NCBI GenBank assembly: GCA_020216745.1
Contig: JAIWNQ010000087.1
Location: forward strand, 1 to 10,000
Direction of reading: 5' to 3'
DNA length: 10,000 nt
From: Candidatus Hydrogenedens sp.
GTDB lineage: Bacteria; Hydrogenedentota; Hydrogenedentia; Hydrogenedentales; Hydrogenedentaceae
A program made the translations under genes and the position numbers. Numbering within the stretch: the stretch's first letter is position 1; each line of letters starts with the position of its first letter. Below the pieces are notes generated by a model, which saw only the letters and a program-made list of their open reading frames with translations, searched no databases and was not told the origin of the DNA. Below are positions 1 through 10,000 of this stretch, piece by piece.

Positions 1-689
1 GCCACCCATCTACCTACTGTGTCGAAATCCGAACGATGACGCGACTCACAACGTCGTAGCATTGCAGAAACACGCATCGTATAATCCTTTGCGAGAACCC
101 CAGGCGGAATTGGCGAAACATTATGTGTATCATGCCAGAAAATTCGATTGCCCTGATACTTCTGCATTCGTGGTATACCTCCATAGAGTCCAATGCTTTC
201 AAACAGCACTGGCATTTTTCCCAACCGCGAACATGCAGATACCAATTCACCAGTAAACATCCACGCATAAATTGCCATCGTTAGTGTTGGAGAAAGACCA
301 TAGTCACGCATCAACAATGTCATTGCTCCTGGAATAGGATGAGTAACACCAAAAACGACCCAACATGCCCCTGGCGTCGATACAGCTTCTGGTACTGGAT
401 GTTCTGCATCTGCGAAAAACAGGACGGCGTCGTTATCCATAGTAATCGTCTCTGGTAAGATAGCAGTAAGCATCAATCCTCCAGCCCGACCTGTTATCTC
501 GCTTACCAGAGCTGGATTTCCACCAGCATAAAGTCCCCCACCTGCGACAATTCTTTTTGCTACCATTTCCCCTGCCTGCACCATTGCAGGGATATCTTCC
601 TGTGCTCGGTCAAGGGCATCTGCTGTCCGCAGTAAATACGAATCTGGCATTGCACCTATAATCATAATCACACTTATTACAATAATCAT
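1..689 (-). CDS. SIS-domain-like protein, N-terminal part, cut by left edge
   Basis: The reading frame is open for 229 codons from ATG at 689 to the window edge, so the C-terminus is missing. An AGGAGA Shine-Dalgarno site (695-700) lies 5 bases before the ATG and supports this start. The N-terminus (MIIVISVIMIIGAMP) is hydrophobic and could be a short signal peptide or anchor, although it lacks an obvious basic n-region; a second in-frame ATG at codon 14 is a weaker alternative. Residues about 36-75 read AGEMVAKRIVAGGGLYAGGN followed by a GRAGGLM motif. This resembles the first strand and helix of SIS (sugar isomerase) phosphosugar-binding folds, where a Gly-rich loop and an RAGGL-like segment line the ligand pocket. 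If the leader is real, an exported SIS-like protein is unusual, because known SIS proteins act in the cytoplasm. Substrate and reaction cannot be stated. It is divergent from the tRNA gene. Confidence is high that this is a gene and moderate for the family. Confidence 0.75.
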   Translation of the reverse strand, partial: MIIVISVIMIIGAMPDSYLLRTADALDRAQEDIPAMVQAGEMVAKRIVAGGGLYAGGNPALVSEITGRAGGLMLTAILPETITMDNDAVLFFADAEHPVPEAVSTPGACWVVFGVTHPIPGAMTLLMRDYGLSPTLTMAIYAWMFTGELVSACSRLGKMPVLFESIGLYGGIPRMQKYQGNRIFWHDTHNVSPIPPGVLAKDYTMRVSAMLRRCESRHRSDFDTVGRWV

Positions 690-907
690 ATATATCTCCT
701 GTTTCAGTTTCTTACTACTTATATATCATTTGATAATAAATGTTTACCTATCCCATCTATTCAGCATAACAGAAAAATTTCAATCTCTACAATTTAAGTA
801 ATACGTATTCTAAATTGTTTGTTACCTTTCAATAACCTCTATACATTACAGATATTTTCAGTAACTAATCCCTCTAAATTATTCGTTGTATAAAAAAAAT
901 CATATAT

Positions 908-948
908 TTGATTTTAACTACAGTATTATCATATAATCCCTTTATAAT
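908..948 (+). promoter_or_regulatory. Candidate promoter of the initiator tRNA gene
   Basis: Two perfect TATAAT hexamers lie just upstream of the tRNA, at 932-937 and 943-948. The first has a TTGATT -35-like box (908-913, 4 of 6 consensus bases) at 18 bp spacing and would start transcription near 944. The second has no good -35 box at 16-18 bp and would start almost at the mature tRNA 5' end. The surrounding 690-957 spacer is very AT-rich, so chance matches are possible. I saw no gene in that spacer. Confidence 0.5.
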
Positions 949-957
949 ACGATATGT

Positions 958-1034
958 CGCGGGGTGGAGCAGTCTGGCAGCTCGTTGGGCTCATAACCCA
1001 AAGGTCGCTGGTTCGAATCCAGCCCCCGCTACCA
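958..1034 (+). tRNA. Initiator tRNA-Met (CAU), 77 nt with encoded CCA
   Basis: The sequence folds into a full cloverleaf: a 7-bp acceptor (six Watson-Crick pairs plus an unpaired 1-72), D stem GAGC/GCTC, anticodon loop CTCATAA with anticodon CAT, T arm GCTGG-TTCGAAT-CCAGC, and a genomic CCA at 1032-1034. Three features identify it as the formyl-Met initiator rather than elongator Met: three consecutive G-C pairs at the bottom of the anticodon stem (GGG/CCC), an A11-U24 pair in the D stem, and no Watson-Crick pair at 1-72. The last feature lets formyltransferase recognise the charged tRNA in bacteria. Here the mismatch is C1-U72, where Escherichia coli has C1-A72. The remainder is close to the E. 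coli sequence and has the same length. It appears to be transcribed alone and is followed at once by a terminator. Confidence 0.98.
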
Positions 1035-1042
1035 TTGAAATT

Positions 1043-1076
1043 AAAAGGACTTGCACAAATGTGTGAGTCCTTTTTT
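1043..1076 (+). terminator. Intrinsic terminator of the tRNA gene
   Basis: The arms AAAAGGACT (1043-1051) and AGTCCTTTT (1066-1074) pair perfectly. A 2x2 mismatch and a CAC/GTG inner stem with an AAAT loop lie between them. A run of six T (1071-1076) completes a classical Rho-independent terminator 8 bases after the tRNA CCA end. The A-rich 5' arm means it may also work weakly in the other direction. Confidence 0.9.
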
Positions 1077-1151
1077 CATGTCAATAAAGTATAATCGATC
1101 CCATTTACGTTTCAACGATAATCTAACGTTTATAATAGGTTTGATTAAAAA

Positions 1152-1169
1152 ATCGTTATTATTAACGAT
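1152..1169. repeat. Perfect inverted repeat, possible operator
   Basis: ATCGTTA (1152-1158), spacer TTAT, then TAACGAT (1163-1169) form a perfect 7-bp inverted repeat with a 4-bp spacer. The half-site AACGATA also occurs as a single copy at 1114-1120 in the same spacer. The dyad sits about 70 bases before the hydrolase start and just upstream of its candidate -35 box, so binding by a dimeric regulator is plausible. In such AT-rich DNA it could also be chance. Confidence 0.4.
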
Positions 1170-1182
1170 ATTCGTTGTTTCC

Positions 1183-1213
1183 TTGCAAAATATGATTTAA
1201 TTACATTTATAAT
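1183..1213 (+). promoter_or_regulatory. Candidate promoter of the secreted hydrolase gene
   Basis: A perfect TATAAT (1208-1213) has a TTGCAA box (1183-1188, 4 of 6 matches to the -35 consensus) 19 bp upstream, which is slightly long spacing. Transcription would start near 1220, leaving a short leader that contains the AAGGA Shine-Dalgarno site at 1226-1230. Another TATAAT at 1131-1136 lacks a convincing -35 box. Confidence 0.4.
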
Positions 1214-1237
1214 GTATCATTAAACAAGGAAATAACG

Positions 1238-3322
1238 ATGACGAATTTTATTATTGCACGGTTCCTTCTATCCCTCGTTTTTACATTCTCATCTCCACCA
1301 ACATTTCAGGATTTGATGAACCCCGATGTATTTCCCGACCCACAATGTGGAATGCTTGTAGAAAAAGCAGAGATTGTAAATGGTAAATTATTTATACAGA
1401 CTACAGGTGCGAAATTCTCACTCAACCCAACTGGTGAGGGAACTTTTCAGCAACGGATTGGACACCCTCGTCCTGTCCTTACAATAAAACTGGAGACAGG
1501 TGTTATAGAAGTTCCACCAAAAATAATCACTAATTCACCTGGACGTGCTGTTATATCTTATGATAAGTTTAATCTTCGCATCAACGGCGATTCTTTATTC
1601 ATGTTTCAGGCATTAAAACCTCTTACAGTTACAGTATCCAAAAAAATCGATGTCGGTTTTCATGCCTCATACAAAGCGAATCATGTAATTTTTGATGAAT
1701 ATGGTGGTTTTGGTCTATGTTACTCAGAACAAGAGACGGATGATGAGTTCAATCCTTACGGCGAGACAACCGCAAAATATACCATTCCTCCCAACGCTGT
1801 GTTATGGATAGGTGTCTGTCCACCAAAACCATATAATTGGGAACGTTCCATTCATGATAACATCGTCTGGCACTGGTCAAATCAGTTAGGTTATCCTCCC
1901 GACACCGAATTAATATCATGGGCAAAGGAAGGAAACATCATCCTGCTTCAATCAGAAGTAATGCTATGGAAAGACTGGAACCTTGCTTTCATCCCGAGAT
2001 TAGGCGAATCAGAATTTGCCCGTGTCCGAGATACCTGCCATCAACACGGACTACGATTTATTGTCTATACAAGCCCATACTATTTCTTAAAAGGCACACC
2101 CTTTGAATCACAAGCCATGAATTCATTCGAAAATTTCAAAGGTTGGCCACCAGGTGATGCTACAGGTAGAAACATAGACCTATTTTTGTCAGAAATTTAT
2201 CGAGTGATGAAAGAATACAAACCCGATGGTTTATATTTTGACGGGCAATACACAGACAACCCCGCACCATTATATATGCTTGCCAGAAAAAGTCGAGAAC
2301 TATTAGGTGAAAATGGCATTTTAGAATGGCATTCAACATGGGCTCTTGGCAATGGACAATGTTTCCTGCCTCAAGCCGATGCCTACATAGACATTATCCT
2401 TCGAGGTGAAGGACAAGACACGTTATACAAAGACTTTAATTATCTTCGCTACTTCGTCTCATGTTACAACACCAGCAACAGTATCGGTGTGTTATGCACC
2501 AATGGACCTCATAAGCCCTCTGCAGATACTATTGACCGACTCCTTAAAGCCAACTGTCGGCTTCATACAATTGTTGGTTGGCTACAAGATAAAGAAATGA
2601 TGAACCTACTTAAAACACACTATCGAAACAAACTCACCCCAAAACTTCGTAACGAAATTGAGCAATTAGCAATGGAACGACAAAAAGAAATACCAAACAT
2701 CTCAAAGAAGAGAGCCAACGAAGAGAAAATGTTACTTCAAGAACCTTCATGGGAAAAACCAATTTTCGTTGAGGAATTCAACAGCATACCTGACTGCGAA
2801 TTACACATCTCCCCACAGAACAACAATCCCTTCTCTGTTCAAAGTGGAATCATGTCCATCTCCGCTTTGCCTCATACATACGCATACATTACCTGTCCAT
2901 TAGACAACATCATTCAGGGATTTACTGTTCGCTTAAGACAAGGCACTGACAACGGAATGTCATGGGGTCCAGCAGTTCAAATCCGTTGGGAAGACGACTC
3001 ACGCTTGAGGGTTGGACTCCGTAGCGATGGACTAATACAACTTGACATCGGAGGCGAACAAAAACTATTCAAAGGATTTAATCCTAACGAATGGATTCAA
3101 TTGCGAGTCCGCTGGACAGAACACATAGGACTAATCGAAATATTGAACCCAGATAATCAATGGCAAAAAATTACCCGCTTCAATCATGCCTGCCCTATTC
3201 ATACTCCCGCAAAAAATGTATCCTTCGGCAAAGTCCCCTATAACGGCGAACCCATCGACCACACCGATAATAATAACCTTCTCCCTGGCACCAACCAATG
3301 GGACACTCTCTCCCTATTTTAA
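1238..3322 (+). CDS. Secreted putative glycoside hydrolase (TIM-barrel plus C-terminal beta-sandwich-like domain)
   Basis: The product has 694 residues. The start is supported by AAGGA (1226-1230) 7 bases upstream. Residues 1-19 (MTNFIIARFLLSLVFTFSS) look like a Sec signal peptide, so the protein is probably exported. Residues about 36-200 form a beta-rich region like the N-terminal sandwich of several glycosidase families. Residues about 225-450 look like a TIM barrel: alternating strands such as LRFIVYTSPYY (272-282) and DGLYFDG (330-336), then EWHSTW (363-368) and RGEGQD (389-394). D335 with E363 or E391 are candidate catalytic acids, by analogy with barrel glycosidases that carry acids at strand ends. 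A charged helical linker (about 460-505) leads to a domain (510-694) resembling concanavalin-like or DUF1080-like carbohydrate-binding sandwiches. I cannot name a GH family or substrate. The gene converges with the ATPase gene and does not look functionally tied to the defence-like block. Confidence 0.7.
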   Translation: MTNFIIARFLLSLVFTFSSPPTFQDLMNPDVFPDPQCGMLVEKAEIVNGKLFIQTTGAKFSLNPTGEGTFQQRIGHPRPVLTIKLETGVIEVPPKIITNSPGRAVISYDKFNLRINGDSLFMFQALKPLTVTVSKKIDVGFHASYKANHVIFDEYGGFGLCYSEQETDDEFNPYGETTAKYTIPPNAVLWIGVCPPKPYNWERSIHDNIVWHWSNQLGYPPDTELISWAKEGNIILLQSEVMLWKDWNLAFIPRLGESEFARVRDTCHQHGLRFIVYTSPYYFLKGTPFESQAMNSFENFKGWPPGDATGRNIDLFLSEIYRVMKEYKPDGLYFDGQYTDNPAPLYMLARKSRELLGENGILEWHSTWALGNGQCFLPQADAYIDIILRGEGQDTLYKDFNYLRYFVSCYNTSNSIGVLCTNGPHKPSADTIDRLLKANCRLHTIVGWLQDKEMMNLLKTHYRNKLTPKLRNEIEQLAMERQKEIPNISKKRANEEKMLLQEPSWEKPIFVEEFNSIPDCELHISPQNNNPFSVQSGIMSISALPHTYAYITCPLDNIIQGFTVRLRQGTDNGMSWGPAVQIRWEDDSRLRVGLRSDGLIQLDIGGEQKLFKGFNPNEWIQLRVRWTEHIGLIEILNPDNQWQKITRFNHACPIHTPAKNVSFGKVPYNGEPIDHTDNNNLLPGTNQWDTLSLF

Positions 3323-3332
3323 GTACTCCCAC

Positions 3333-3377
3333 CTGTCCGACTCCTCCGCCTCGTCCGACCTGTCCGACTAATCCGAT
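3333..3377. repeat. Degenerate 9-bp tandem repeat, five units, between convergent genes
   Basis: Five contiguous 9-bp units can be read: CTGTCCGAC, TCCTCCGCC, TCGTCCGAC, CTGTCCGAC and TAATCCGAT. The shared core is TCCGAC; units one and four are identical and the last abuts the stop codon of the minus-strand ATPase. The array fills nearly all of the 54 bases between the two convergent stop codons. It does not form a hairpin with a T-run, so it is not an evident terminator. It is more GC-rich than its surroundings. Confidence 0.75.
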
Positions 3378-5914
3378 TAAAATTCTATCCCTAATTGCCT
3401 CAAAGCCTCATAAATTTTCTCACGCTCTTGCCTTGTTATCTTACCCTCTCTGGCACGAACTATTATTTGCACTTCTTTAAATTTCCCGTCAATAAACTTT
3501 ATAACTTGCATAACATCGCTTACCTTCCCCTTGGGTAGTGGAAAATTCAATTCAAGTTCTTCTTCATATATGTCCTCTCTCTTACTCTCTATTGCCTCTT
3601 TACCAATTATTTGTTCTGTTGAATATGATGTGCCCAATCCATTCTTTACAACTACAGGTTCTTGAGATTTTTCTTCACCTCTTTTTTGTGGTTCACAAAG
3701 ATTCTCTGCAATAATCACTTCATTATTCTCAAAGGAAACATTCGGTACTTCCTTAAAATATCTACAGACAGCCTTATCACCGGATAATTCCCCCAAACCA
3801 AACATGCCCTTACTCACCCCTTCCTTAATAGCATCTTCCAGAACGGACTTCGATAACAATCTTGACTCTCCAGGTACCCGATACGATGCATTCAATATCT
3901 GTTCTGTTATCACATAGTCCTTTCCTTTCAAATAACGCTCTTTTACAACTATTGGCGCGATTCGTTCTAATATCTCCCCCTGCGACCGCAGTCTTTCATA
4001 CACCTCCGCAACAATACTCTGCACATTACCATGGGTTGCAATCCCCAAATCATCAATCTTATATCCTTCCTTAGTAGGGATTCCTACCTGACGATATAAC
4101 CTCCGTATCGTTTCTACCAATTCCTTGTCCATCTCCTTTACTTTACTCTGTATATTCTTCTTCTGCTCATCCGAAATTTGCAATGTCATATCTTCCAATA
4201 TAGATTTATGCGCCTTGTATTCCCGAATAACATTCTTAAACATCTCTCGCTCACTTTCCATCGGAAAAAGGAAAAATACCGTATTACAATTTACCCGTGG
4301 ACTGGCCCCTTTTTTCTGTATCATATTCAAAATAACATCTTTATCTTCCCACGGCAAAATTACCAGTTTCATCTCATTAGTATCCGGAATATTAGATGGA
4401 TTTCTCTCCCATATATATACCCTTAACTTATCGTGTTTCGTGTTTCTCAAAAGCAACTCTCGTTCCATCTCTTGAATATCAGAATCCTGGACATTTTCCT
4501 TTTTAGTTAATAAAATCCTATTTATATTCGGTTTATTAGAAAAATAATATTTGCCCCCATGATACTGAATATAAAACAACTTATTCTTTAATTGTTCTAT
4601 CGCCTCCGTAACCGCACTCGAAGGATTTCCTATAGTCGTCGAACACCGTTTAATTTCACTCAACGTCGCACCCCTTTCCTCGCCACCTGAAAAAGAATAC
4701 ATAAAAATAGTTGTTGCAGTTCTCGTTCCCAGCTTTAAATTCTTATACATACTTCCCGACTCACGATTAATTCTCTCACTCCCAGAATTATAATCCGTAA
4801 TGTCCTGTGCTATTACACTATTAAACTCACTTCCACAATATCGAAGTAATTCCTCCCGCACCTCATGCTTCATTAATGGAAAATCAGCAACACTAATATA
4901 CGGAACCTTTTCTTTAATTAAGGCCCCTACAACAAGAGCCAATAATCGCAAAACACCCCGCGTCCGTTGAAAATTAGGAAGACTACCCCAACGATGATAC
5001 AGAACATCTATCACCTCCGGCATGAAGGGATACGATGCTAAAAAACGGTCCCGATACTGAGTAATCTCTACACCCGAAGGTAAAATCTCTTCCTTTTCCG
5101 CATATTTTATAAACTCATTCACTACCTTCTTCACTTCGGACATTTCAATATTTCGAAACAACCTCTGACGAATGACACTGGCTATTTCCGAATCCTGGAC
5201 CGGAGTATAAATCTTTTCCATTCGCCCCGTTACCTTCTGCAACTGAGCATACATCTGTTCCGATATATTATCGTAATGCTCCAGATGGCTTGACGGCAAA
5301 GTAATTACCAACGACACCTTTTCTAACGATGAGACCGTTTCCGTCAATTCCTGAATAAAAGCCAATGTTTGCCCTCCTAAATTACTCTCACCCACTTTGT
5401 ATCCGCTCGCCTTCGTCATATATTCCAGCAACTCATCTATCAATATCACCAACGGTTGTTGTGGCTCCAACAATTTCCGCAATTTATCTTTCCCCGGTGA
5501 TGTAAACTCAGTAAGCAATTCATTCTTACCCATTAATTGTCTTTCCAGCAAACCCCACAATGTCGTACTTGCCTCCAAATTAGTCCCTACAATAACCACA
5601 GTTTTTGCATCCCATTCCTTCCTCGCCCGATGATATATAGCAATCAAGGAATGCGTCTTCCCTCCACCAAATGGCGTTTGCAACTGTATCACAGGGTCAC
5701 CACCTTTGCCCTCTATCCGACCTCGTATTATCTTTAATAGACTCTTTAATCCTTCTGTTTCATATGTCTTCTGAAAAAACAAATCCGCATCTCGATATTC
5801 CGTAGGCCCTTCATTATGCGCTACCTGCCAGAGGTCCGCCGCGAAAATATCCATTGTCAACCTACCCGAAACTATATCCGCATGAGGATTCGCTATAGTA
5901 TGAAATGCTTTCAT
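3377..5914 (-). CDS. DUF499-type P-loop ATPase, candidate anti-phage protein
   Basis: I place the start at ATG 5914 (845 residues) because AAGGAG (5924-5929) lies 9 bases before it; the ATG at 5923 touches the Shine-Dalgarno site with no spacing. The N-terminus from 5914 (MKAFHTIANPHADIVSGRLT) also begins as DUF499 proteins usually do, leading into MDIFAADLW. In this numbering the Walker A motif PFGGGKT is at 81-87, Walker B VILIDE at 156-161, and a sensor-like strand VSLVITLPSS at about 200-209. The middle part is helical with winged-helix-like stretches, followed by a charged, probably flexible linker (about 730-790). A final alpha/beta region ends in EALRQLGIEF, as is common in the family. 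DUF499 ATPases are repeatedly found beside DUF1156 methylases in defence regions. Their exact action is not known to me; DNA-dependent remodelling or sensing is inferred. The gene follows the methylase after 172 bases, so it may be cotranscribed or have its own promoter. No frameshift is visible. Confidence 0.88.
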   Translation of the reverse strand: MKAFHTIANPHADIVSGRLTMDIFAADLWQVAHNEGPTEYRDADLFFQKTYETEGLKSLLKIIRGRIEGKGGDPVIQLQTPFGGGKTHSLIAIYHRARKEWDAKTVVIVGTNLEASTTLWGLLERQLMGKNELLTEFTSPGKDKLRKLLEPQQPLVILIDELLEYMTKASGYKVGESNLGGQTLAFIQELTETVSSLEKVSLVITLPSSHLEHYDNISEQMYAQLQKVTGRMEKIYTPVQDSEIASVIRQRLFRNIEMSEVKKVVNEFIKYAEKEEILPSGVEITQYRDRFLASYPFMPEVIDVLYHRWGSLPNFQRTRGVLRLLALVVGALIKEKVPYISVADFPLMKHEVREELLRYCGSEFNSVIAQDITDYNSGSERINRESGSMYKNLKLGTRTATTIFMYSFSGGEERGATLSEIKRCSTTIGNPSSAVTEAIEQLKNKLFYIQYHGGKYYFSNKPNINRILLTKKENVQDSDIQEMERELLLRNTKHDKLRVYIWERNPSNIPDTNEMKLVILPWEDKDVILNMIQKKGASPRVNCNTVFFLFPMESEREMFKNVIREYKAHKSILEDMTLQISDEQKKNIQSKVKEMDKELVETIRRLYRQVGIPTKEGYKIDDLGIATHGNVQSIVAEVYERLRSQGEILERIAPIVVKERYLKGKDYVITEQILNASYRVPGESRLLSKSVLEDAIKEGVSKGMFGLGELSGDKAVCRYFKEVPNVSFENNEVIIAENLCEPQKRGEEKSQEPVVVKNGLGTSYSTEQIIGKEAIESKREDIYEEELELNFPLPKGKVSDVMQVIKFIDGKFKEVQIIVRAREGKITRQEREKIYEALRQLGIEF

Positions 5915-5923
5915 CCAAACCAT

Positions 5924-5929
5924 CTCCTT
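5924..5929 (-). promoter_or_regulatory. Shine-Dalgarno site that decides the DUF499 start
   Basis: On the minus strand the site reads AAGGAG and is followed directly by ATG at 5923 and, after 9 bases, by an in-frame ATG at 5914. A ribosome cannot normally use a start codon adjoining the site, so 5914 is preferred. This trims three residues (MVW) from the longest frame. Confidence 0.8.
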
Positions 5930-6006
5930 TTTTTCATATTGTCATTCAATTCTAACAAAAAAAGAAATAAAATAATAAATTACATTACAACATATAACCA
6001 GAGCAC

Positions 6007-6035
6007 CCATTGTAACGGGAGCATCCCTGCTCCTG
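6007..6035 (+). repeat. Hairpin repeat, copy 1 (between methylase and ATPase genes)
   Basis: This 29-base element matches 26 of 29 bases of the copy at 9007-9035. Its arms CGGGAGCA (6016-6023) and TGCTCCTG (6028-6035) form an 8-bp stem with one G-T pair around a TCCC loop. No T-run follows on either strand, so it is more likely a dispersed REP-like repeat than a terminator. The rest of the gap (5930-6086) is AT-rich and I saw no gene or convincing promoter in it. Confidence 0.8.
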
Positions 6036-6086
6036 AACCCTAAATAACCACTCCAGGAACAAATACACTCCCCCTACCTCAATCCC

Positions 6087-8930
6087 TTAAAACAATTCCC
6101 TTTGCTCTGGCTTTGTTGCAAGTTTATCTATTTCACGTAAAACTCTTTCTTTACCCGTTAAAAATCCTTCCAACAACTTCTTCTCCTTACTCTCATTCGG
6201 CAAACACTCCGCCACTGCCTGCCCAACACGATAAAACGCATCACTCTTCCCATATCCCGTCTCCTTCAACAATTTCAACAACTCCTCCTGCTTACTCTTT
6301 TCCCACAACAATAATACACGATGCAATACATCTATCAAATCCTTCCCCCCTTTTAATTCTTCCCCTTCCCGTTCCGCAGGTCCCAAAACACGCACATACT
6401 CCTTATCCTTTCTTATGAAACTTCCCCGCTTCGACCATTCCTCCGTAAGGTCTATACCACAACTCGTTGCCAGCTTCCGTGCCTCGTCAAATTCTACCCG
6501 TGCCTCTCCATACTCCCAACGATACAACACATAAAATCGGGTCAACTCACTTATCTCCCCTGCAAAACCATTATGCAATATCTTACGCACCGCATAATCC
6601 GTCGCTATCTTCCGTATCTCCTCCAACATTACATCCGCACGAATTATCTCCCCCTCATAATTCATCACCTTCTCATACTTCCCAAACACCTCTATCCCCG
6701 CACCTATCGCCGAAATAAAAAAGTCCGACCCACTCACCCCCTCATCCCACAATCGCTCCAATTTCTGATTCAAATACCACTTCAACTCTTCCAAAACCTC
6801 ATTATAAAACCCCGTCTCCTCCCGCTTCATCTTACGCCCAACAATATAAATTGACGACGCCAATACAGCCGATTCATTTGCCCTTAATCGCGATTGCATC
6901 TCCGTATTTACTGGCCAGGACGCCGTTACCACCAAACCCGAATCCAGCAATGCATTTATCACCGTTTCCCAGCCCGATGTCGATTTATGTGCATACACAA
7001 TCACCGCTATCCCATCCGGCTTCAATATCCGATACATCTCCTTAAACGATAACCCTAACTGCTCCTCAAAAAATCTTGTAGCTTTTATTTTCCCTCCTTC
7101 TCTTTCGGGATATGCAACAATCTCTTGTTTTTTCGGCGTAAGATATGTGATAAACAACTCCGGATACAGATGACCTATACTCCGTTTCAACCACACATAG
7201 AAAAAATCCGACAAGTAAGAATAAGGAACATTATCATAATAAGGTGGGTCCGTTAATACCGCATCAAAATAATTATCCGGATAGGGAAGCTGTGTCGCAG
7301 AAGCATGACTAACAACAGGAACTAAAACCTGACAATCTGAAATCTGTGATAGGTTACTCAATGTTTTTAAATAATATTCTTGCCCTGTTATAAAACTTCC
7401 TGTAGAGCAACTAAAAGGATTCAATTCTACATAGTCCCAAAGCATTGTGATTGCTTGTCGCCCAAATAAATGTTTTATAGCTTCAGAAGTATTGTCCCAA
7501 CGTGTAAGCGAACTATTGAAAGCAGAATTCATATCTATTGTTATCCCCAGGTAGCTAACCACTGCTTTAGCAAAGTCGGGTGGATATTGTAGTTGAATCA
7601 TTTCCTCATACGCCCTGCGAACCGCATCACAAAAAGTTATCAGACTCAACTTCTGCCTCGAATTAAATAAATCGCCCCATTTCTTTGGAGAACTCCAGTG
7701 AGGAGAAAAACCCAACGTCCCTTTTATTGGTAATTCCTCATCAGGCACGGGCTCCATACCCCATTTCTCTCGCAATTCTTCCACCTTTCGGGATAATGCC
7801 TTCTCCGCACATAGGTATAATTCCATATCTTCTTCTGTGGCTATTCGATACCGTTTCCCCCTCTCTGTTCCACCTTTCCCCAAAGTACGGTTTTCCTCAC
7901 CAGCTAAATAAACCACCGCTATCATCCGCTGGCTTGATTTCCCCTCCTGAAACAACTGCCTCGTGGTCTTATCATCTATCACCGCACCACACGCAGGACA
8001 GCTTACTACCGCACGGGCTACAGTCCCTTTTTCCGGATCAAAACTACCCACCGGCAAATCCAAATTTGAAATATCGGGCTTCTCAATAAACCGCCATCCT
8101 TCCTTACCCTTCTCTACAATCCCAAACTCAATCGTATTCCTCTCCTTATCTACCACCGGATACAACGATATCTTCTTTCTATCCTTCTTAGCCAACCAAT
8201 ATTGCCTCATCAATGGAATCTCCACAGAACAAATAGGATTCTGGCATGGTATCGTTCTTGCCCATATATATCCGACGGGAATAGAAAAATTATTTTTTCC
8301 GGGGTAGACATAAAAAGATAAAAGTTCTTTTTTTGCTTCCTCTAAAACCCAATTCCCCCAATATTTTACTGCAAATAATAAAGGGCTATTTTTAGAAATG
8401 TTGTATTCATCAGAAAAATAAGTTCTATTTCCTTTATTTTCATTATGAATTTTCGATAAATCCGGAACCTCAGAGGATGTGTTTCCATATTTCACAGGAT
8501 AAACCAATGTCGCCAATTCAATTAATACTGCTACAGGATTGTAGTCATTAGCATAACTTTCACAACCCAGTCGTAATGCTTCCAATGGATAAGCCCCCCC
8601 ACCAGAGAATGGATCTATAACTTTAGGAGGCTTATCCGCATTTGCCTTTAATATTTCCTCTCGGGCTTTTTTAATAAACATCTTATTATTCGAGTTTTCC
8701 CATTTGCATAGATTAACAATAAAATCCCGTTTCTTTTGCCATTCATTTATGTTTGACTGTACCGGTATTAAACTTGCATAAGCAGTAGCCCTACTTGAAG
8801 CTAAAGGTCGTCGTGCCCACCATATATGCAAAGTACTGATATGTCCATGTCGGATATTTTTTTCCTTAGCACTTTCTATACCCACTTCCTTTACCGGAAA
8901 CGACTCTTCAATAAACCGTTTACTTGTCAT
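6087..8930 (-). CDS. DUF1156 DNA methylase, candidate anti-phage modification enzyme
   Basis: The product has 947 residues. The start is ATG 8930 with AGGAGG (8935-8940) 4 bases upstream. The N-terminus (about 1-60: FIEESFPVKEVGIESAKEKN, then HIWWARRPLASSRA) is the DUF1156 signature. DPFSGGG (106-112) is the S-adenosylmethionine-binding motif I, and DPPYYDNVPY (561-570) is the catalytic motif IV of amino-methyltransferases, pointing to N6-adenine or N4-cytosine methylation. C229 and C234 (CQNPIC) with C311 and C314 (CPAC) probably bind zinc across a long insertion. The stretch DMNSAFNSSLTRWDN (466-480) is also typical of the family as I recall it. The large middle and C-terminal regions may carry target recognition. 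The enzyme would act on DNA in the cytoplasm and protect self DNA. It sits between the helicase-like and ATPase genes, with 144- and 172-base gaps. Base composition varies strongly along the gene. Confidence 0.92.
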   Translation of the reverse strand: MTSKRFIEESFPVKEVGIESAKEKNIRHGHISTLHIWWARRPLASSRATAYASLIPVQSNINEWQKKRDFIVNLCKWENSNNKMFIKKAREEILKANADKPPKVIDPFSGGGAYPLEALRLGCESYANDYNPVAVLIELATLVYPVKYGNTSSEVPDLSKIHNENKGNRTYFSDEYNISKNSPLLFAVKYWGNWVLEEAKKELLSFYVYPGKNNFSIPVGYIWARTIPCQNPICSVEIPLMRQYWLAKKDRKKISLYPVVDKERNTIEFGIVEKGKEGWRFIEKPDISNLDLPVGSFDPEKGTVARAVVSCPACGAVIDDKTTRQLFQEGKSSQRMIAVVYLAGEENRTLGKGGTERGKRYRIATEEDMELYLCAEKALSRKVEELREKWGMEPVPDEELPIKGTLGFSPHWSSPKKWGDLFNSRQKLSLITFCDAVRRAYEEMIQLQYPPDFAKAVVSYLGITIDMNSAFNSSLTRWDNTSEAIKHLFGRQAITMLWDYVELNPFSCSTGSFITGQEYYLKTLSNLSQISDCQVLVPVVSHASATQLPYPDNYFDAVLTDPPYYDNVPYSYLSDFFYVWLKRSIGHLYPELFITYLTPKKQEIVAYPEREGGKIKATRFFEEQLGLSFKEMYRILKPDGIAVIVYAHKSTSGWETVINALLDSGLVVTASWPVNTEMQSRLRANESAVLASSIYIVGRKMKREETGFYNEVLEELKWYLNQKLERLWDEGVSGSDFFISAIGAGIEVFGKYEKVMNYEGEIIRADVMLEEIRKIATDYAVRKILHNGFAGEISELTRFYVLYRWEYGEARVEFDEARKLATSCGIDLTEEWSKRGSFIRKDKEYVRVLGPAEREGEELKGGKDLIDVLHRVLLLWEKSKQEELLKLLKETGYGKSDAFYRVGQAVAECLPNESKEKKLLEGFLTGKERVLREIDKLATKPEQRELF

Positions 8931-8955
8931 AAATCCTCCTCCAGATAATCAACTT

Positions 8956-8961
8956 ATTATA
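8956..8961 (-). promoter_or_regulatory. Candidate -10 box upstream of the methylase
   Basis: A perfect TATAAT on the minus strand lies 26 bases before the methylase ATG and would start transcription near 8949. No good -35 box is found 15-18 bp upstream, so an own promoter for the methylase is only a possibility. Confidence 0.3.
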
Positions 8962-9006
8962 AACTAAGCATACTTTACCATATCATAATACTAATAATAC
9001 ACACAT

Positions 9007-9035
9007 CCATTGTAGCGGGAGCATCCTTGCTCCCG
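9007..9035 (+). repeat. Hairpin repeat, copy 2 (between helicase-like and methylase genes)
   Basis: The arms CGGGAGCA (9016-9023) and TGCTCCCG (9028-9035) pair perfectly over 8 bp around a TCCT loop, preceded by CCATTGTAG. It is the best-formed of the three copies. It has the same plus-strand orientation as the other two and lies in an otherwise AT-rich gap. Confidence 0.85.
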
Positions 9036-9047
9036 TATAAAAAGCGT

Positions 9048-9072
9048 TATAGCGGAAGCATTTTTGTTCCCG
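9048..9072 (+). repeat. Hairpin repeat, copy 3, degenerate
   Basis: This element matches 20 of 25 bases of 9011-9035, and all five differences are transitions. The arms CGGAAGCA (9053-9060) and TGTTCCCG (9065-9072) still pair except for one A-C mismatch and one G-T pair, around a TTTT loop. It begins 12 bases after copy 2 and ends two bases from the stop codon of the helicase-like gene. A T-run lies about 10 bases beyond it on the minus strand, which is too distant for a standard terminator. Confidence 0.7.
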
Positions 9073-9074
9073 AC

Positions 9075-10000
9075 CTACTCAACCTTTCCCGACCTCTCTA
9101 TTTCTTCCATCCTCACAATATATCTAACCACTTTTTCTTCAGGTTGCATATTGTCCGCAGGATTCCGAACAATCTTTAATTCAGGATTTGTAGATGCGTT
9201 AAACACAATATACAAATAATAATCATCTTTAAATCGTTGTGCATGTAGCCATTCATTCTGCGTAATAATAACATCCCCTTTATCCGCACGCGTTTTAACC
9301 TCTATATACCGTATCCCAATAGATTCCCCATTCTCATCATATTTCACAGAACGAATATCAAACCCTAAATTCTGTTCAGAAACATCCTCAGGATTCCTCC
9401 CCTGCTTCCGTTCATATTCCATTGCGACATGCATACCTATTGCTTCTATCTCTTCACTTACAATAATGGGTTTCTTCCCTTCTCGTTTTTGATAGGGCAT
9501 TACTCGAACAACCGATAAAAGACGAGGAGTCTCCATAGATAGGGATGTCTCTTTTTGAATCTGTTTACGTAACTCCTCTTTTTGGTGTTCGTATCGTCTC
9601 TTCTTCTCCTTAGTATTGTTTATTACCAGTTCCACATTTTCACCGTTATCTTTCCGTTTTTCTAATTTTATTAGGTCCTCATCTAATCTATCAATGAGAT
9701 ATTCTAATGATTTCACCCCATAGTTCTTCTTAATTTCTGCCTGCCGATTCCGTTCCTGAAGCAATTCGTTCTTATATTCTTCCAGCGCCTGCAAAGCGGT
9801 GCGTAATACCTTATTCTCTATTTCCTCTACGGATAAAGATGACTCCGATATAGGTTGATTTTCTTGCTCTAAGTCCCAAAGGATAGACGGTGGAATAGGT
9901 TTAATGTTTGCTCCATCTGTATAAAATGAAAAAAGCCGTTTTCCTGCGGTAGCCCCTGTTCCATCCTCAATTTCACCTTCATAAAAGATAATATATCCAT
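9075..10000 (-). CDS. C-terminal part of a probable helicase with DUF3883 domain, cut by right edge
   Basis: The frame is open from the TAG at 9075 to the window edge (307 codons), so the true start lies outside; an in-frame TTG at 9794 has no reason to be the start. The visible protein begins GYIIFYEGEIEDGTG, then GKRLFSFYTDG and PPSILWDLE, a stretch like the region after the motor in large SNF2/DEAD-type helicases of defence loci. A charged coiled coil of about 80 residues follows (roughly 9550-9790). The last 120 residues match DUF3883 (NO VEIN C-terminal-like): GRNPEDVSEQNLGFDI, RYIEVKTR, NEWLHAQRFKDDYYLYIV. D (codon 9357-9359), E (9300-9302) and K (9294-9296) form a D...ExK pattern as in PD-(D/E)XK nucleases. 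No helicase motif lies inside the window, so the helicase identity rests on domain pairing and context. It is probably the first of the three genes to be transcribed. Confidence 0.75.
   Translation of the reverse strand, partial: GYIIFYEGEIEDGTGATAGKRLFSFYTDGANIKPIPPSILWDLEQENQPISESSLSVEEIENKVLRTALQALEEYKNELLQERNRQAEIKKNYGVKSLEYLIDRLDEDLIKLEKRKDNGENVELVINNTKEKKRRYEHQKEELRKQIQKETSLSMETPRLLSVVRVMPYQKREGKKPIIVSEEIEAIGMHVAMEYERKQGRNPEDVSEQNLGFDIRSVKYDENGESIGIRYIEVKTRADKGDVIITQNEWLHAQRFKDDYYLYIVFNASTNPELKIVRNPADNMQPEEKVVRYIVRMEEIERSGKVE

Follow-up and report, generated by a model that had tools for sequence, protein, structure and literature searches.

Which protein of an Hma defence system chooses the DNA site on which the system acts? 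The question is raised by an operon on a 10,000-nucleotide contig of Candidatus Hydrogenedens sp. (JAIWNQ010000087.1, assembly GCA_020216745.1), which is the whole stretch of DNA analysed and is called the window hereafter (contig C185; the genome comprises 3.13 Mb in 295 contigs and is 86% complete). Hma, consisting of HmaA, HmaB and HmaC, was named in 2021 from 1,638 instances in 26 phyla (Payne et al., PMC8565338), and was described anew in 2026 as the Type-1 DUF499-centred BREX-related (BR) system (PMC12839542). It occurs in 2446 taxa (PMC12839542), yet the literature found holds no experimental test of which protein chooses the site. The Hma system itself is thus already known, and what is new here is a testable statement on where its specificity lies. 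We give a probability of about 0.65 to the reading that the intact operon encodes a restriction-modification-like defence guided by HmaB, every activity in it being predicted from sequence, a structure model and analogy.

The first-pass annotation of the window had proposed three same-strand genes resembling Hma loci, and profile searches bear this out. In the list of open reading frames (ORFs) of the window, hmaC, hmaB and the 3' part of hmaA all lie on the minus strand, and all three products match PADLOC Hma models, which carry no curated cut-off and are reported by E-value, as well as Pfam families above their cut-offs. HmaB matches PDLC00661 (6.5e-126) and DUF1156 (2.6e-21), HmaC matches PDLC00662 (8.5e-126) and DUF499 (2.2e-42), and the HmaA fragment matches PDLC00659 (4.5e-21 in the protein profile search) and NOV_C, the DUF3883 domain (4.2e-25). 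The DPFSGGG and DPPY motifs claimed for HmaB and the Walker A and B motifs claimed for HmaC are all present (Table 1). The alternative label of 'anti-phage-associated' DUF1156/DUF499 proteins fared less well, the NCBIfam models of that name giving 168.2 of the 1000 bits needed for DUF1156 and 169.8 of 1200 for DUF499. To judge by its sequence, the locus is an Hma system in the naming of PADLOC, or a Type-1 BR system.

What points to HmaB as the protein that chooses the site is the way in which one part of it evolves. For each protein search, the best 120 of at least 7,741-7,983 matches, among about 8,000 scored candidates from a protein database clustered at 90%, were compared, together with the HmaB and HmaC of the window. 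The two nearest HmaB proteins, P0001 (93%) and P0002 (85%), are mosaics of the window protein: P0001 differs at ten scattered residues and in two stretches, 402-416 and 464-536, and P0002 differs in both of these places and again around 39-137, 193-245 and 568-618, its last 250 residues being little changed. The same places stand out when each protein is scanned in steps of 20 residues over its near pairs, defined by a median 20-residue identity of at least 0.90 (69 pairs for HmaB, 102 for HmaA and 70 for HmaC). HmaB residues 401-420, 461-480, 501-520 and 521-540 reach mean identities of only 0.42-0.51, and residues 261-280, 441-460, 481-500 and 601-620 reach 0.63-0.70. HmaA has a single step below 0.70 (861-880, at 0.68), and HmaC has two (741-780, at 0.62-0.69). 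One explanation is that the mosaic HmaB proteins are chimaeras, assembled from several alleles in one metagenomic sample. Most of the sequences are indeed metagenomic, and the contig of a second genome of the genus, G001, ends inside hmaB, as could happen where alleles differ. We nevertheless regard this as highly unlikely: the pattern recurs across the HmaB near pairs and is not found in those of HmaA or HmaC, which are data of the same kind, an assembly artefact would not single out one protein, and several natural segments would still be required.

Over 7,260 pairs, identity in the HmaB segment is hardly coupled to identity in the rest of the protein (r=0.15), against 0.77 and 0.74 for two control blocks. 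Among the 48 near pairs whose remainder is at least 0.88 identical, segment identity is two-peaked, with 37 pairs below 0.5, none at 0.5-0.8 and 11 at 0.8 or above; a control block is at 0.8 or above in all 48. Because the segment had initially been picked from one pair, every 95-residue block of the three proteins was also scanned without guidance. The least coupled block of all is HmaB 461-555 (r=0.14), the minima being 0.58 in HmaA and 0.64 in HmaC. Neither of these two proteins has a stretch that is uncoupled in the way that the HmaB segment is. In 22 HmaB pairs, moreover, the segment is at least 0.80 identical and more alike than the rest, which goes down to 0.68, a pattern that fits transfer of the segment between lineages. 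The latter observation bears on another explanation, in which the segment varies under attack by phage anti-restriction proteins, or simply tolerates change, and does not read DNA. The phage inhibitor Ocr does target BREX methyltransferases (PMC11341690, PMC11842806), and contact between the segment and DNA is our own inference. The 22 pairs, however, fit a module that is passed on, and the segment lies directly before DPPY, within the insert that has been called a target-recognition domain (PMC12839542). We therefore hold this explanation to be quite unlikely.

Around this segment, the partner proteins hardly change. The HmaC representatives nearest to that of the window carry 0, 8 and 1 substitutions, different starts aside, and the HmaA homologue P0122 shows 5 differences, while HmaB proteins of nearly the same backbone carry different segments. 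If the HmaB segment is exchanged and HmaA and HmaC stay nearly constant, HmaB would most simply be the protein that reads the target for both methylation and restriction. On this basis, we lean slightly towards a modular view of Hma/BR systems, in which HmaB would be the single specificity subunit and its segments at about 398-418 and 461-536 would be swapped by recombination between lineages, re-aiming a conserved pair of HmaA and HmaC at new DNA sites much as HsdS exchange does in type I restriction. The same slight preference extends to these two segments as the re-aiming parts, rather than the four-cysteine region of HmaB or the end of HmaC.

A number of observations pull in the other direction. 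When the unguided block 461-555 is used, some near pairs do fall between the two peaks: of 31, 17 lie below 0.5, 4 in between and 10 above. The link between segments 1 and 2 is only a loose one (r=0.51 for near pairs and 0.05 over all pairs), so that they may move apart. HmaB is also more mosaic elsewhere, with a median block r of 0.64 compared with 0.81 for HmaA and 0.79 for HmaC, and P0002 differs in HmaB blocks outside the two segments. The near pairs are not independent, 49 proteins forming the 48 pairs, and the database is clustered as noted above; the comparisons are therefore to be read as signs of exchange, not as rates. The constancy of HmaA and HmaC in the case of P0001 and P0002 is deduced through nearest relatives and not from their own neighbouring genes. 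Finally, HmaC has a variable C-terminal stretch of its own, 711-805, with a mean identity of 0.77 over its 70 near pairs and 4 of these below 0.5.

This last point leads to the alternative that the invader is recognized mainly by HmaC, through its alpha+beta, winged-helix and C-terminal RRM-like parts, and that HmaB only marks self DNA. Such a role for the ATPase has been proposed (PMC12839542), and the variable stretch (741-780 within 711-805) would fit it. Residues 711-805 nevertheless diverge in step with the rest of HmaC (r=0.76), unlike the HmaB block with its r of 0.14. In addition, if HmaA or HmaC alone read the site, an HmaB with a new site would leave the old sites unprotected; a change of HmaB site alone would leave those read by HmaC open to attack. 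Recognition by HmaC is for these reasons considered unlikely.

If the HmaB-guided reading is taken up again, the steps could be as follows. HmaB would bind a specific DNA site through its replaceable recognition segment and would methylate an amino group on the cell's own copies of that site. On an unmethylated copy in an invader, HmaB would instead nucleate a complex that also contains the HmaC ATPase and the Snf2-type motor of HmaA, which would then move along the DNA while its C-terminal PD-(D/E)XK domain cuts. Every activity, complex formation, the methylated base, contact of the segment with DNA and a single reading by HmaB that serves both methylation and restriction are the parts of this scheme that we infer. 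It makes predictions: each natural pair of HmaB proteins with nearly the same backbone but different segments should recognize two motifs, and if the scheme is true, methylation and restriction should move together with the segment, which would then be the stretch to read when Hma motifs are predicted. Searches for silent hmaB cassettes gave one hmaB match only in the window's own genome (86% complete), and no report of recognition segments being exchanged in Hma or BREX systems was found in the literature searched, a scope that leaves out bioRxiv preprints and most subscription papers.

As to the chemistry, the motif order and the DPPY of HmaB point, as we take it, to an amino-methyltransferase. 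The base methylated is probably adenine, at N6, and the PADLOC HmaB model is described as a DNA-adenine methylase. An insert with four conserved cysteines, a candidate zinc finger, appears from the motif order and the model to follow core strand 2.

The cutting step raises the question of a nuclease. The first-pass annotation saw no separate nuclease gene and placed any cutting in the helicase/DUF3883 protein or beyond the right edge of the window. The former option is supported: the C-terminal domain of HmaA has the PD-(D/E)XK core fold in a structure model and carries the D and the E-x-K of that superfamily, conserved among homologues, and this DUF3883/NOV_C end is the predicted nuclease of the system. 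The nuclease question thereby gains a named domain and named residues. Every residue of the helicase motifs DPGAGKT, DEAH, TATPH and QRMGRIHRYGQ is kept in 116-120 of 120 HmaA proteins. These residues also bear on the view that the locus serves regulation by marking DNA, or is a defence that has decayed and no longer cuts. The locus is without known phenotype, as that view would have it; the motifs of the three proteins and the nuclease residues are, however, intact and near-invariant, and we rate it the least probable of the alternatives.

The helicase part cannot be seen in the window because the contig stops at position 10000. It was found, as the first-pass annotation had anticipated for the neighbouring sequence, on contig C186, continuous with the hmaA of the window. 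Searched over its own genome, PDLC00659 matches C186:11-2254(-) at 1.3e-183 and the end of the window at 2.9e-20. Since this is a Snf2/DEAD model, it matches in all 14 control genomes too, and it is the strength and place of a match that count, not its presence. In the same-genus genome G001, a full-length HmaA of 1151 amino acids (aa) adjoins a partial hmaB and matches PDLC00659 at 2.5e-200, and the DrmD and BrxH helicase models more weakly. The joint itself is precise: the 817 codons on C186 correspond to residues 1-817 of P0122 (1125 aa) and the 307 codons of the window to residues 819-1125, with 5 mismatches in 1124 and one codon spanning the joint. Contigs C184, C185 and C186 abut, as judged from reading frames and gene order, and each is exactly 10,000 bases long, so that hmaA seems to have been cut in the deposited sequence, rather than being a broken gene. 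C182, C183 and C187 have the same length, and their abutting is an assumption. With gaps of 163 bases between hmaC and hmaB and 144 bases between hmaB and hmaA, and with hmaA continuous over the joint, the genes are arranged as an operon that is apparently complete and intact.

Table 1. Features of the hma operon; coordinates refer to the window unless a contig is named.
Feature	Position	Strand	Basis
hmaC, DUF499 ATPase, 848 aa	3377..5923	-	ORF, Pfam, PADLOC
HmaC Walker B LVILIDE, aa 158-164	5432..5452	-	D and E in 121/121
HmaC Walker A GGGKT, aa 86-90	5654..5668	-	121/121
hmaB, DUF1156 amino-methyltransferase, 947 aa	6087..8930	-	ORF, Pfam, PADLOC
HmaB catalytic DPPY, aa 561-564	7239..7250	-	121/121
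HmaB putatively exchangeable segment 2, about aa 461-536	7323..7550	-	sequence comparison
HmaB putatively exchangeable segment 1, about aa 398-418	7677..7739	-	sequence comparison
HmaB four conserved cysteines C229, C234, C311, C314, candidate zinc finger	7989..8246	-	cysteine conservation; zinc binding predicted
HmaB motif I DPFSGGG, aa 106-112	8595..8615	-	motif present
hmaA 3' part, 307 complete codons and 2 bases of the codon shared with C186	9075..10000	-	ORF, PADLOC, homologue alignment
HmaA C-terminal NOV_C/DUF3883 domain, PD-(D/E)XK nuclease fold, fragment residues 181-307	9078..9458	-	structure model
HmaA YIEVKTR with candidate catalytic E-x-K, fragment residues 233 and 235	9288..9308	-	E and K each 120/120; predicted role
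HmaA GFDIR with candidate metal-binding D, fragment residue 214	9351..9365	-	D in 119/120; predicted role
hmaA first 817 codons	contig C186 (L036) 2-2452	-	profile search, homologue alignment

Each gap of the operon holds a 22-base hairpin-forming repeat (window 6011-6032 and 9011-9032, both on the minus strand). The own genome contains 5 exact copies of its degenerate pattern, including the 2 in this operon (0.00 expected in the window), and 0 copies were found among the other loci compared, such as L038 of G001; the fold of the second repeat is not clearly stronger than that of shuffled sequences (z -1.57). Between positions 3000 and 10000, neither promoter-like sites (17 versus 17.1 expected) nor terminator-like sites (1 versus 4.5 expected) exceed chance.

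The three genes are also kept together in relatives, as the first-pass annotation would have it. HmaB-like matches at E<=0.001 occur in 20 of 59 relatives (own genome excluded), some of the weaker ones covering the methyltransferase core only. Fourteen of the 22 loci examined hold all three genes, always on one strand, 12 in the order A-B-C and 2 in the order C-B-A (L083 and L084); the A match of L084, at a contig edge, is weak (26 bits), and L087 has only fragments of the three. Seven loci hold two of the genes (4 A and B only, 3 B and C only), 6 of them being cut by a contig end, and one holds a fragment of B alone. hmaC was not found in G001, whose contig ends within hmaB, so that gap and loss look alike; neither hmaB nor hmaC had a match in G002 or G003. 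In L041 (5594-8319) and L075 (6495-9154), hmaB lies in two overlapping frames, for which decay, sequencing error or a programmed shift are possible. In L073, L075, L077 and L078, hma genes are separated by 1.5-5 kb, which leaves room for embedded genes, and defence candidates embedded in Hma loci are mentioned in PMC12988326.

The term 'island' used for this locus proved too loose, as the operon is surrounded by ordinary chromosomal genes, at a point where gene order is broken. Upstream of hmaA are a four-helix gene, tRNA-Pro, two glycosidase genes and an AbiJ_NTD3-TIR gene, in the same order as in G001; on the hmaC side, the neighbours are a glycosidase-like gene and tRNA-Met. In G003 and G002, an amidohydrolase gene comes after the left-flank gene (window 1238-3322). 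On the other side, the right-flank tRNA-Pro is followed in G003 by a 142-base piece like the four-helix gene and then by infC, whereas infC of the own genome is on C182; provided that the contigs abut, the distance is about 36 kb, and most of the genes in it are ordinary chromosomal ones. A mobile island with a clean empty site is unsupported: gene order is broken, and no insertion ends can be named. The 142-base piece (L057 9014-9155), 75% alike to the four-helix gene, is perhaps a trace of a larger stretch, in a genome without hmaB or hmaC match.

Several neighbouring features deserve mention in their own right. The AbiJ_NTD3-TIR gene (L036 8569-9423 and L038 11091-11963, both on the plus strand), some 6 kb upstream of hmaA, is conserved in each of the two hmaA-bearing genomes of the genus, and in PADLOC it matches TIR-type candidates. 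Adjoining it, L036 7476-8438 (-) encodes a 320-aa protein with no Pfam match above cut-off and no PADLOC match, whose start resembles, by eye, restriction-subunit N-terminal domains. Arrays of a TCCGACTCG-like 9-base unit, encoding Ser-Asp repeats, are found around, and extend into, the four-helix gene and tRNA-Pro that lie upstream of hmaA (L036 2582-2688, 2877-2911, 3288-3332 and 3478-3584) and recur in G001 (L038, about 5962-6036). At L037 3425-5110 (+), an N6/N4 DNA methylase gene (Pfam 1.2e-44) is directly followed by a 223-aa gene with no Pfam or PADLOC match, possibly its restriction partner; DNA alike to this methylase region is found near tmRNA in G002. Matches to UreF, Alpha_L_fucos, Tropomodulin and 23S_rRNA_IVP fell below the Pfam cut-offs and were not used as assignments.

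How, then, does the locus compare with known systems? It shares with the Hma systems of 2021 the same three proteins by PADLOC profile in one operon, and differs in that HmaB was predicted there to be an m5C methyltransferase (PMC8565338), whereas an amino-methyltransferase is indicated here. With Type-1 BR systems it has in common the tripartite core, a DUF1156 methyltransferase with a large insert and four cysteines, a Snf2 helicase with a C-terminal PD-(D/E)XK nuclease, and a DUF499 ATPase without HEPN match; further parts described for that type are a TUDOR domain and an inactive REase in the helicase, a C-terminal HTH triad in the methyltransferase and an RRM in the ATPase (PMC12839542). 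The main difference is that invader recognition is assigned to the ATPase in that work (PMC12839542), whereas the data presented here point to HmaB. Of the features that define Type-1, a DUF499 ATPase with intact Walker motifs, an N-terminal DUF1156 followed by the four-cysteine insert, and a Snf2 helicase whose C-terminal PD-(D/E)XK domain is predicted to be active from sequence and fold were all found in the operon. Genes typical of Type-2 (DUF3780/HKD) or Type-3 (PglZ/iSTAND) were absent from the 11 proteins of the window, C184 and C186 (Pfam E<=0.01), and the hma intergenic gaps leave no room for them. Work on an Snf2-nuclease in Halomonas is cited in PMC12839542.

Type I restriction systems combine a replaceable recognition segment, exchanged through HsdS, with a constant motor. 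In the operon described here the segment would lie within the methyltransferase itself, no separate specificity subunit being seen. BREX differs from it in other respects, as no PglZ, BrxA, BrxB or BrxL gene was found among the proteins scanned and the effector would be the helicase-nuclease. Experiments have established that in BREX both methylation and the targeting of phages take their specificity from PglX (PMC11341690), and DNA recognition by BrxX is required for BREX defence (PMC11842806). The HmaB-guided reading would give Hma the same proposed logic, with a site-reading methyltransferase, an AAA+ ATPase and site-specific marking of self DNA (PMC11341690, PMC11842806).

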